Shown: piece by piece, positions 52,868 through 56,982 of the stretch
Layout: each line of letters starts with the position of its first letter
Position numbering within the stretch: the stretch's first letter is position 1
Assembly (NCBI RefSeq): GCF_016278385.1
Contig: NZ_JADQBY010000002.1
Coordinates: 170,338 to 234,337 of the forward strand
Direction of reading: 5' to 3'
Origin: Methanolobus sp.
Lineage (GTDB): Archaea > Halobacteriota > Methanosarcinia > Methanosarcinales > Methanosarcinaceae
Length of the DNA stretch: 64,000 bases
Position numbers and translations under genes: made by a program
Notes under the pieces: generated by a model
What the model saw: only the letters and a program-made list of their open reading frames with translations
What the model was told of the DNA's origin: nothing
Database searches by the model: none

Positions 52868-53458
52868 TCAGTAAATCCAGACGACCTCAGGTTCTTTCTT
52901 GGGAATCTCCTCAGTCTCTGTGGTCGGATATCCGAAGACTATGGGTGCAATTACCCTATAATCAGGTGTGATGCCAAGTTCTTCCAGAATCTCAGGATTA
53001 TCCTGAATGAAACATCCTGTTCCGATCCAGCAGCTTCCAATACCCATCGAATGAGCTGCAAGCATCATATTCTCAGCACATAGCGCACAGTCATAGTCAG
53101 CGGTCACACTTGCATTGTTGCCAAGGACTATAATAAGGACAGGTGCATCGTAAAATATATGGAATTCATCATTTGCAAGTTCCTTTTTGAACTCTACAGC
53201 AGCGTCATTGGTAGCTTCATCCAGCATTGCAAGCAAACGTGGTTTACAATGATCGGACATTCTTTTCATCATCTCACGGTTCTTCACAACAACAAAGAAC
53301 CATGGCTGGCTATCAAAACCTGATGGTGCATGAATACCTGCATCAATTATTGTTTTTATATCTTCGTCATTGATGTCCTTATCAATATATTCACGAACAC
53401 TTCTACGTGCCTTTATATTTTCAATTACACTATTTTCTTCCACTCCCATTGAAATCAC
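52868..53458 (-). CDS. Nitroreductase-family flavoprotein
   Basis: IKARRSVREYIDKDINDEDIKTIIDAGIHAPSGFDSQPWFFVVV, AHSMGIGSCWIG. Confidence 0.92.
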   Translation of the reverse strand: MISMGVEENSVIENIKARRSVREYIDKDINDEDIKTIIDAGIHAPSGFDSQPWFFVVVKNREMMKRMSDHCKPRLLAMLDEATNDAAVEFKKELANDEFHIFYDAPVLIIVLGNNASVTADYDCALCAENMMLAAHSMGIGSCWIGTGCFIQDNPEILEELGITPDYRVIAPIVFGYPTTETEEIPKKEPEVVWIY

Positions 53459-53461
53459 TCC

Positions 53462-53803
53462 TTATTTTTTAGATTCAAGGAATTCTTGCAGAGATATCTG
53501 CATAAGACTGTCAGGATCTTCAATATCCTTGTGTACGTAAAGACCACACCAGCATCGTTTCATTGCATCATAGTGTTCCCTGTGAAAAGGTATGCAGGGA
53601 CAGACAAGTTTCATATCATGCTCCCTTTCACCCGTAAGACCCTGGCATGGACAAAAAGGACTCCCTTTTTCCTTTTCGATGTTTACTTCCTGCTCAAGCA
53701 AGAAATCAACCAGTTCCGTATCAGGACTGAATTTATATCCCAGGGGACCCACAACCTTTGAGAACATGGCCCTTAGCTTTTCCTTTCTCTTTTCAGAATC
53801 CAT
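53462..53803 (-). CDS. Ferredoxin:thioredoxin reductase catalytic-subunit-like protein
   Basis: FCPCQGLTGEREHDMKLVCPCIPFHREHYDAMKRCWCGLYVHKD: three CXC motifs of FTR catalytic subunits. Confidence 0.9.
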   Translation of the reverse strand: MDSEKRKEKLRAMFSKVVGPLGYKFSPDTELVDFLLEQEVNIEKEKGSPFCPCQGLTGEREHDMKLVCPCIPFHREHYDAMKRCWCGLYVHKDIEDPDSLMQISLQEFLESKK

Positions 53804-53809
53804 CTGACA

Positions 53810-54058
53810 TCATAACCCCATTAATTTAGAATATTTATCAGGATTGTATCCCACAACCACATCATCGCCTATTTTCACAAACGGGAAAGACATTTCCGAA
53901 CCATGTGCCAGACAATCTTCCTTGATATCTCTTTTTGTTTTATCGTCTGCCTTATCATAATCTACATACTCAAAAGGAATATCGTGTTCCCTGAAGAATT
54001 TTTTTGCCCTCATACACCAGGGACAGGTACTGAGGGTATACAGAACTACTTTCTTCAT
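53810..54058 (-). CDS. Glutaredoxin-like protein
   Basis: KKVVLYTLSTCPWCMRAKKFFREHDIPFEYVDYD; FPFVKIGDDVVVGYN. Confidence 0.92.
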   Translation of the reverse strand: MKKVVLYTLSTCPWCMRAKKFFREHDIPFEYVDYDKADDKTKRDIKEDCLAHGSEMSFPFVKIGDDVVVGYNPDKYSKLMGL

Positions 54059-54384
54059 ATGCCTGCACCTTCCAGATTTACAAAAACACTGCCATCCATA
54101 ACCTTCGTTTCATAAACAGGCACCTTGATCTCTATTGCATCAAGGAACTCACCGTTGCGAATATCAAACTTCCAGTCGTGACATCCACATTTTATCACAT
54201 AATCTTCCAGAGTGCCTTTTGATAAAGGACATTCCATATGAGGACACTTGTTGGAAATTGCAAAAAAGACACCTTCTTTCCTGAGAAGAAGAACCTTGTT
54301 ACCTTCAAGTAATAATGCTGTTTTCTCACCGTCGGGAAGTTCATCTACCCTTATTGCCAGAATCCATCTACTTTCCACGTTCAT
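54055..54384 (-). CDS. Rieske [2Fe-2S] protein, soluble (copy 1)
   Basis: NKCPHMECPLSKGTLEDYVIKCGCHDWKFDI (CXH...CXXH). Confidence 0.92.
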   Translation of the reverse strand: MNVESRWILAIRVDELPDGEKTALLLEGNKVLLLRKEGVFFAISNKCPHMECPLSKGTLEDYVIKCGCHDWKFDIRNGEFLDAIEIKVPVYETKVMDGSVFVNLEGAGI

Positions 54385-54405
54385 AAATTCATTCCTGCTG
54401 CATAT

Positions 54406-54711
54406 TTATGTGAGAATGGATATTTTTCCATCCTTCACCTGCGTTTCATATACATTTACCTTTATCTTATCGGATGCAACATATGCTCCGGTGCGAATAT
54501 CAAAGGTCCAGCTATGACAAGGACATTTTAGAGAGTAGTCTTGAAGAATACCTCCTTGCAGAGGACAATTCATATGCGGACAACGGTTCTCAAGGGCATA
54601 GACTTCCCCCTCTTTACGAATCAGGATGATTCGCTGATCTCCAATATCGACTGGTTTTATTTTACCTTCTTTCACTTCATTATCATTTGCAGCGATTATC
54701 CACGAAGTCAT
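54406..54711 (-). CDS. Rieske [2Fe-2S] protein, soluble (copy 2)
   Basis: NRCPHMNCPLQGGILQDYSLKCPCHSWTFDI; start placed at MTSW (54711). Confidence 0.92.
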   Translation of the reverse strand: MTSWIIAANDNEVKEGKIKPVDIGDQRIILIRKEGEVYALENRCPHMNCPLQGGILQDYSLKCPCHSWTFDIRTGAYVASDKIKVNVYETQVKDGKISILT

Positions 54712-54737
54712 TTTAAATCCCCTTATAGTCGAACATA

Positions 54738-55052
54738 TCATAGATAGACAAGTATTTCTCCGTCTTCTACCTTATTTTCATAAACCTCAAGAACCTCATC
54801 CTTTTCCCCAAGGTATTTACCAGACCTTATGTCGTACTCCCAGCCATGACACGGACATTTCAGGATAAACTCATCACTGAAGGTTCCTTTAGAAAGACGG
54901 CATCCCATGTGCTTACACTTGCCGGAAAGAGAGTAGATTACTTTATTTTTCCTAATCAGAAGTACAGGATTTCCCTTTACCCTGACAAACTTCATATTCC
55001 CATCTTTCAAATCACTGTCTTTAAGTGCAAAAAACCAGGATTGTCCTGACAT
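54738..55052 (-). CDS. Rieske [2Fe-2S] protein, soluble (copy 3)
   Basis: GKCKHMGCRLSKGTFSDEFILKCPCHGWEYDI. Confidence 0.92.
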   Translation of the reverse strand: MSGQSWFFALKDSDLKDGNMKFVRVKGNPVLLIRKNKVIYSLSGKCKHMGCRLSKGTFSDEFILKCPCHGWEYDIRSGKYLGEKDEVLEVYENKVEDGEILVYL

Positions 55053-55125
55053 TCGTACCTCCTATAAATAATCAGGGTTCCAAAAATATAAATAGTTGTC
55101 GTGGAATAAAAATAAAGTATCAAGC

Positions 55126-56487
55126 TCATTCATTGATACTTCTGTGCTGGAAATAACGATATTCCCGCCATACAAGGAACATACTTATAGTGGCAGCCAT
55201 GAGATCCGCTATCGGAAATGCCATCCATACTCCTGTAAGATCGAAGTAGTACGGAAGAAGAATTACCAGAGGTATCAGGAACAATATCTGACGGCTCATT
55301 GAGAGGAAGAAAGATGGTTTTGCTTTGCCCAATGACTGGAACAGCGTCGTTCCAATTACATTCAGACCAATTAATGGACTTGCCAGAACCATTATCCTCA
55401 GAGCATATGCTCCACTACTTATGAGGTCAGCATCTGTGCTGAACATACTGAAGAATGTGCCTGGAAATACCGACAGCATAATTAAACCTACCACACCAAA
55501 GAGAGTGGTGATTAGTAATGAGGTCCTGACGGATTCATTTACCCTTGCATAATTCTCTGCTCCATAATTATAGCCGACTATTGGCTGCAGACCATGAGAT
55601 ATACCTATTATAGGCATGAGAATGAGCATTATCAATTTGATTGCAACACCAAACACCGCTATTGAAAGGTCGCCTCCATAGATAACAAGTACATTGTTCA
55701 GTACAAGCATCATAAAACTGTTTGATGCACCCATTACAAAGGAACTAAAACCTATCAATGATATTTCTTTGATAAGATGGAATTTTGGAGCAAAATTTGA
55801 TAATTTGATCTTGACTTGACTTTTCCCACCCAGATAATAATACACAAGATACAGAGTTCCTGCCAGTTGTGCAAGTACAGTCGCAAGAGCTGCACCTTTT
55901 ACACCCATACCAAAGCCGAACATTAGTATCGCATCAAGGAAGATGTTCAGTACTCCTGAAAATATCATGTTATTCATGGCAACTTTTGAGTTACCTTCAG
56001 CCCTTACAAGATTGTTCAGCACAAAACCAAATGTGAATGCCAATGTTCCCTGCAATATTACAACAGAGTATTCCTTTGCATAGAAAAGATTGTCAGCAGT
56101 GGCACCGAACAGATTCAGTATTGCATCTACGTTGAAGAAAAAGAGAATCTGAAAAACGACACTAAGTATCAGTGTATAGCTAAAGACATTCCCAAGAGTT
56201 CTTTCAGCTTTGTCCACATCCCCGGAACCCAGCATACGTGATATCACCGAAGAACCACCGACGCCTATTCCAATGGATATTGCCATCATAAGCATCTGCA
56301 AAGGAAAAGCAACAGCTACGCCTGCAATTCCAAGAATGCTCTGCTCACCCAATGCCCTCCCAACAAAGAATGTGTCCACCAAATTATAGAATGCCTGTAC
56401 AAGAAGTCCTATTATAGCAGGTGTGGACAATTTCCATAATAATTTGTTAATACTCTCAGTTCCTAAAAACTCACTTTTGTTGTTCAT
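55126..56487 (-). CDS. MATE-family efflux transporter
   Basis: LWKLSTPAIIGLLVQAFYNLVDTFFVGRALG, 12-TM architecture. Confidence 0.93.
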   Translation of the reverse strand: MNNKSEFLGTESINKLLWKLSTPAIIGLLVQAFYNLVDTFFVGRALGEQSILGIAGVAVAFPLQMLMMAISIGIGVGGSSVISRMLGSGDVDKAERTLGNVFSYTLILSVVFQILFFFNVDAILNLFGATADNLFYAKEYSVVILQGTLAFTFGFVLNNLVRAEGNSKVAMNNMIFSGVLNIFLDAILMFGFGMGVKGAALATVLAQLAGTLYLVYYYLGGKSQVKIKLSNFAPKFHLIKEISLIGFSSFVMGASNSFMMLVLNNVLVIYGGDLSIAVFGVAIKLIMLILMPIIGISHGLQPIVGYNYGAENYARVNESVRTSLLITTLFGVVGLIMLSVFPGTFFSMFSTDADLISSGAYALRIMVLASPLIGLNVIGTTLFQSLGKAKPSFFLSMSRQILFLIPLVILLPYYFDLTGVWMAFPIADLMAATISMFLVWREYRYFQHRSINE

Positions 56488-56502: not shown

Positions 56503-56982
56503 TCAAATGCTAGTTTGTTTTTTATTCTCTGACTTTTTGTCAAATTCTATTAGGGTATTTCTGCCTTTGTCCAGAAGTTTCCTGAAAATGGTTTCCTCTT
56601 CTTCTGTGAATTCTGAAAGGAGGATTTGGTTCCACTCGTAGAGGGTTTTATTTATCAGCGGGATTATCTCCCTGCCTTTATCCGAGATGAAAACACGGTA
56701 TATCCTTCGGTCATCCTCGTCCTTTTCACGATAGATGTAACCTTCTTTTTCAAGAGCCACTATGGCTCGTGTTGCAGTGGCTTTGCTCAGGTTGAGATGT
56801 CGTGCAAGGCTTTCCTGAGAACAGCCACCCTTATGTGAGAGCGTTAGTAAAAATGCAAACATCGGTCCTTTCAGATTATAAGACCCGAGTGCATTCTCAA
56901 TGTAAAGATGATTATGCGAGAAGATGAAAGCTATTTTCGCACCGATTCGTTCAGATTGCCTCACTAACATCACTCCACACAC
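56503..56982 (-). CDS. MarR-family regulator
   Basis: SQESLARHLNLSKATATRAIVALEKEGYIYREKDEDDRRIYRVFISDKG. Confidence 0.92.
   Translation of the reverse strand: MCGVMLVRQSERIGAKIAFIFSHNHLYIENALGSYNLKGPMFAFLLTLSHKGGCSQESLARHLNLSKATATRAIVALEKEGYIYREKDEDDRRIYRVFISDKGREIIPLINKTLYEWNQILLSEFTEEEETIFRKLLDKGRNTLIEFDKKSENKKQTSI

Follow-up and report, generated by a model that had tools for sequence, protein, structure and literature searches.

FTR-type enzymes convert one-electron carriers into two-electron thiol reduction. They need a one-electron donor, and to our knowledge ferredoxin and rubredoxin are the only inputs known for them. In Methanosarcina barkeri, a NrdH/FDR system, in which a glutaredoxin-like protein is the partner of an FTR-type reductase, delivers electrons to the class III ribonucleotide reductase. 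PDB entry 4tpu is the ferredoxin:disulfide reductase (FDR) of Methanosarcina acetivorans, in which electrons reportedly enter via a rubredoxin centre and a glutaredoxin-like protein is reduced. This enzyme has the FTR catalytic fold with its CPC...CPC...CxC cysteines, no variable subunit and CYC as third motif, and a rubredoxin is fused to it. The plant and cyanobacterial FTRs (PDB 1dj7 and 2pu9) have a catalytic [4Fe-4S] subunit of the same family, with CHC as third motif, and use a ferredoxin donor, a variable subunit and a thioredoxin acceptor. In PDB 7pwe, a glutaredoxin domain is coupled to an FTR catalytic domain within a single chain, with Tyr in the third CXC. The FTR/FDR class is listed in PMC7278568.

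The locus compared here with these systems lies in a 64,000-nt stretch of a Methanolobus genome (the window), where a six-gene array, all on the minus strand, spans positions 52868-55052 (Table 1). Coordinates and Pfam matches (Rieske three times, Glutaredoxin, FeThRed_B and Nitroreductase) confirmed the same-strand redox array proposed in the first-pass annotation, and the motifs were all as first described: CKH/CPCHGW, CPH/CPCHSW and CPH/CGCHDW for the Rieske proteins, CPWC for the glutaredoxin (Grx) and three CXC for the FTR. For R2, the ATG at 54711 is a more likely start than that at 54741, because it is preceded by an AAGGGG Shine-Dalgarno sequence and because the resulting 26-nt R1-R2 spacing matches that of relatives. 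With this start, the gaps along the array are 26, 21, -4, 6 and 3 nt; the -4 nt overlap reported initially does exist, but between R3 and Grx, R1 and R2 being 26 nt apart.

Table 1. Features of the redox array and of its promoter region (window coordinates). Pfam cut-offs, in bits: Rieske, 20.3; FeThRed_B (PF02943), 22; Glutaredoxin (PF00462), 22.9
Feature	Position	Strand	Support
Promoter block CACGACAACTATTTATATTTTTG, TATA-like core TTTATATT, upstream of R1	55081..55103	-	conserved 23 bp
R1, small soluble Rieske protein, CKHMGC...CPCHGWEY	54738..55052	-	Pfam Rieske 69.3 bits
R2, small soluble Rieske protein, CPHMNC...CPCHSWTF	54406..54711	-	Pfam Rieske 80.3 bits
R3, Rieske protein adjoining Grx, CPHMEC...CGCHDWKF	54055..54384	-	Pfam Rieske 68.3 bits
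Glutaredoxin (Grx), STCPWC active site	53810..54058	-	Pfam Glutaredoxin 44.8 bits
FTR catalytic-type [4Fe-4S] disulfide reductase, CPC-x14-CPC-x13-CWC	53462..53803	-	Pfam FeThRed_B 92.8 bits
Nitroreductase-family flavoprotein, last gene of the array	52868..53458	-	Pfam Nitroreductase 112.9 bits

The 23-bp promoter block ends 28 bp before R1. All 15 aligned rows share it without change save at one C/T position, and in two of them the MATE gene does not precede R1; an exact-sequence search placed it ahead of R1 in over 20 genomes of Methanolobus, with a single match in the window. The intergenic gaps, of 26 nt or less, are too short for the independent internal promoters against which the first-pass annotation had cautioned. 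Together with the single conserved block ahead of R1, they support the view that the six genes form one separate transcription unit, i.e. the operon postulated at the outset. An Rfam search gave no match to an RNA element. Upstream of R1, on the same strand, lie a MATE gene (55126-56487) and a MarR gene (56503-56982); most Methanolobus retain this pair next to the operon, outside the promoter unit of the latter.

The other caution had concerned a missing linkage in relatives; linkage proved strong, within the family and across phyla. In 40 family regions selected by the presence of a Rieske gene near an FTR gene, the order Rieske(1-3)-Grx-FTR recurs (one region, L040, is without FTR), and the nitroreductase is present in 29 of the 40. 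The named relatives with an FTR up to 92% identical are Methanolobus species. Seventeen distant FTR relatives (55-69% identity) were retrieved by FTR similarity alone, without a Rieske criterion: all 17 have the Rieske-Grx-FTR cassette, 15 have a second Rieske gene directly downstream, and a nitroreductase was found in none of these 17 cassettes. They belong to Methanoperedens, Methanomassiliicoccales, Elusimicrobia, Omnitrophota, Fibrobacteres, Myxococcales, Chloroflexi and one unclassified bacterium; since they are mostly MAGs, an individual case might reflect mis-binning, but there is no such doubt about the isolates among the methanogens, and members from Elusimicrobia are numerous. The recurrence of the Rieske-Grx-FTR order is far above chance. 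Moreover, cassette-to-cassette distances agree among FTR, Rieske and Grx (r of 0.79-0.81, with 0 of 2000 permutations as high, shared ancestry being ignored). A literature search, covering few subscription papers, turned up no publication that describes such a cluster of Rieske, Grx and FTR genes.

A few irregular loci were seen. One MAG carries a main operon without FTR (L040) and a second Rieske-Grx-FTR set (L041), the Rieske protein of which has Ser as first ligand in place of Cys. A second, longer Grx reading frame lies inside the operon of another relative (L030:7574-8173), with an FTR-like N-terminal remnant devoid of the motif cysteines. A Myxococcales genome (L137) has a decayed second copy of the cassette-type FTR, without Rieske or Grx.

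The array converges on nif genes, and a role in protecting nitrogenase had been suggested on that account. Adjacency is indeed frequent: in 18 of 27 assessable relatives, nifN ends less than 300 bp from the nitroreductase gene, in convergent orientation. However, in eight relatives no nif gene lies less than about 6 kb from the operon, none was seen near the 17 distant cassettes or near six loci of other genera that are without nitroreductase, and the operon has its own promoter, on the opposite strand, and is not co-transcribed with nif. The adjacency suggests that synteny was simply retained and that function does not require it; the case for a nitrogenase-protection module is weak overall and we regard it as highly improbable.

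The FTR passes its family profile, and the CPC...CPC...CxC cluster and redox cysteines are invariant in a 17-row alignment. Judged by its sequence, the cassette FTR is a discrete and sharply bounded subfamily: with a profile built from 17 cassette FTRs, members scored at least 170.8 bits and every other FTR in the searched genomes at most 69.5. We then classified 169 distinct FTR cores, 55 cassette members and 114 others. All 55 members (from Methanosarcinaceae, Methanoperedens, Methanomassiliicoccales, Elusimicrobia, Omnitrophota, Chloroflexi, Myxococcales and Fibrobacteres) have CWC as third motif, a 13-residue spacer, and Grx and Rieske neighbours. A Rieske neighbour was found for none of the 114 others, some of which had their neighbourhood read over 1.5 kb per side only; the Rieske profile used detects even the divergent downstream Rieske proteins, at 50-77 bits. 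The difference (55/55 versus 0/114) gives a Fisher p of about 1e-45, shared ancestry being ignored; the first family loci had been picked for a Rieske gene near FTR, but the phylum-wide sets, which were not so picked, had it in 29 of 29 and 6 of 6 cases.

Among the non-cassette FTRs, 28 are CHC proteins with neither Grx nor Rieske neighbour. Sixty-one of CYC/CFC type combine a Grx with a C-terminal rubredoxin-like tail, as does one CLC protein; two CYC proteins have the tail without Grx, 11 of CYC/CFC type have neither rubredoxin tail nor Rieske, and three cores have other residues in the third CXC. The last eight, from Thermoplasmatota, are CWC proteins with an N-terminal rubredoxin-like domain and neither Grx nor Rieske (L235, L236, L242, L243, L245, L252, L257 and L262; nitroreductase gene directly upstream in five); these proteins, low-scoring and with rubredoxin in place of a Rieske neighbour, rule out CWC alone as a marker of the subfamily. 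Rubredoxin and Rieske are thus mutually exclusive, the 64 FTRs with a C-terminal tail (CYC, CFC or CLC) and the eight CWC proteins with an N-terminal domain all being without Rieske.

The cassette reductase stands apart from both described types, since it shows the defining features of neither. Plant-type FTRs have His in the third CXC, where every cassette FTR has Trp; the cassette has a Grx neighbour and no variable subunit. As noted initially for the locus, no variable subunit gene is nearby, and this holds generally: PF02941 was found in 0 of 112 family genomes, the Synechococcus control being positive. Compared with FDR of the Methanosarcina type, with its fused rubredoxin and Tyr/Phe in the third CXC (CYC or CFC in archaeal and bacterial FDRs), the cassette FTR has CWC, a spacer one residue longer, no rubredoxin tail and Rieske neighbours; what they share is the catalytic fold with its CPC...CPC...CxC cysteines, a glutaredoxin-type partner and the absence of a variable subunit. 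That Grx and FTR are a real pairing is indicated by 7pwe, where one polypeptide holds both, although in the operon Grx, FTR and Rieske proteins are separate. The Grx, with its CPWC active site, passes PF00462, but it scores 34.1 against a cut-off of 85.75 with the NrdH redoxin model TIGR02194; its PDB relatives include the glutaredoxins 3ic4, 3nzn and 5cax and the natural Grx-FTR fusion 7pwe. The operon also differs from the M. barkeri NrdH/FDR system in having Rieske proteins and lacking nrdD and nrdG.

The same comparison bears on the view that the operon is a co-regulated stress set, with no direct electron exchange among its products and an ordinary ferredoxin reducing the cassette FTR. 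The two other FTR genes of the genome (L065 and L067, on contigs C34 and C14) are also near likely stress genes, as recognised by eye: one directly follows an FprA-like flavodiiron protein, and the other has a cupin and a probable hybrid-cluster protein in its vicinity. But the Rieske linkage is tight, cross-phylum and specific to one FTR subfamily, and no gene family other than Rieske, Grx and FTR recurs beside the cassette FTR across phyla. We consider a mere stress set distinctly unlikely.

The Rieske proteins of the cassette are, by sequence and predicted fold, ferredoxins of the dioxygenase type in which two further cysteines are invariant. They have the CxH...CxxH ligands and the Rieske fold, and their best sequence and fold matches are Rieske ferredoxins of dioxygenases (3dqy, 2qpz and 1fqt); for R3 (AlphaFold2 model, pLDDT of 93.8), which fits electron-transfer Rieske ferredoxins best, the top ten PDB matches have TM values of 0.82-0.88. 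Those ferredoxins serve oxygenases and do not have the extra cysteine pair. Here no Rieske oxygenase is available as a partner, because no more than four Rieske matches occur in the genome; every one is a small protein, and the operon accounts for three. The fourth is a stand-alone protein (L003:1495-1818, contig C30; CPHQGC/CACHNW) that groups with R2-type proteins in the tree.

The first-pass annotation had the ligand motifs right but overlooked the two extra cysteines (CxHxxC...CxCH). In a 22-row alignment these are as invariant as the ligands, and the pair, which gives the upstream cassette Rieske proteins a CxHxxC...CxCHxW pattern, is found in 86 of 87 motif-bearing sequences. The two cysteines fall where bc1/b6f Rieske proteins have their disulfide. 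The set of bc1/b6f high-potential features is nevertheless incomplete, as the cysteines are present but the bc1 Ser is replaced by Trp. The Rieske proteins could be substrates or switches, with a Cys52-Cys68 disulfide (R3 numbering) reduced by Grx/FTR so as to tune or unload the cluster. The invariance of the pair fits this, as does its absence from the downstream Rieske proteins of other lineages (26 of 26). We find it unlikely all the same, since the pair has a structural part in the Rieske proteins of bc1/b6f, which have no such system, and since one R1 orthologue (L037) has lost one of the two cysteines.

In the tree, the R1 orthologue group, which takes in Methanolobus and genus g11, forms one side of a supported branch (starred, 97/91), so the duplication predates the split between the two. 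R3 looks like the core member, being kept where R1 (L027) or R2 (L053) is degenerate; it also matches, by position and sequence, the single upstream Rieske protein of other genera and phyla. At the position of bc1 Tyr165, Tyr is found mainly in R1 (all 28 CHGW motifs) and Phe in R2 and R3. This difference and the orthologous paralogue groups go in the direction of the graded potentials proposed initially, but are only suggestive of them.

Gene adjacency of Rieske, Grx and FTR is not proof of contact. The conserved, cross-phylum linkage to one FTR subfamily nevertheless makes credible the earlier idea that the Rieske proteins are dedicated redox partners, here of the cassette FTR. A swap of modules, Rieske for rubredoxin, is the simplest reading: no variable subunit was found in the 112 family genomes, rubredoxin is fused to most other Grx-linked FTRs, and Rieske is found where CWC FTRs lack rubredoxin. 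Not every FTR gene has such an input module, though, as shown by the 11 CYC/CFC proteins with neither.

We infer the Rieske-FTR contact, the direction of electrons, the substrates and the stress role, and on balance lean slightly towards the operon encoding a Rieske-coupled [4Fe-4S] disulfide reductase. The Rieske ferredoxins, as one-electron carriers, would dock on the FTR-type catalytic protein and assume the role that ferredoxin and the variable subunit have in plant FTR, and the fused rubredoxin in FDR. Two electrons would pass in succession through the active-site [4Fe-4S] cluster to the CXC disulfide of FTR and from there to the neighbouring CPWC Grx, a two-electron acceptor. Grx would in turn reduce cellular disulfides, probably in repair after oxidative or electrophilic stress, while the nitroreductase may detoxify or recycle a flavin-linked acceptor.

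Potentials of dioxygenase-type Rieske ferredoxins are usually near -100 to -150 mV, which would make them weak donors for a dithiol at about -200 mV or below. The flow could therefore be reversed, Grx dithiols being oxidised by FTR and single electrons passing via Rieske to an acceptor, for example the nitroreductase, which is co-encoded in most family loci and adjoins five of the eight Thermoplasmatota CWC proteins with rubredoxin. Such a drain on thiols would be of little use to an anaerobe, the known FTR/FDR enzymes act as reductases, and the distant cassettes are without nitroreductase; we give reverse flow a low probability.

If the Rieske-coupled reductase reading holds, it might extend to a third class of [4Fe-4S] disulfide reductases, fed by Rieske proteins in archaea and bacteria, a proposal to which we give slightly less than an even chance. 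The centre residue of the third CXC would then track the partner: His for ferredoxin, with or without variable subunit, Tyr/Phe for rubredoxin, and Trp mainly for Rieske, the Rieske paralogues providing different potentials or a disulfide switch. As the subfamily is sharply bounded, the idea is directly testable with a few small proteins. If true, it would add a new use of Rieske proteins to those in quinol oxidation, in oxygenases and in nitrite reduction; the orphan Rieske ferredoxins of anaerobes that have no Rieske oxygenases would thereby acquire a role.
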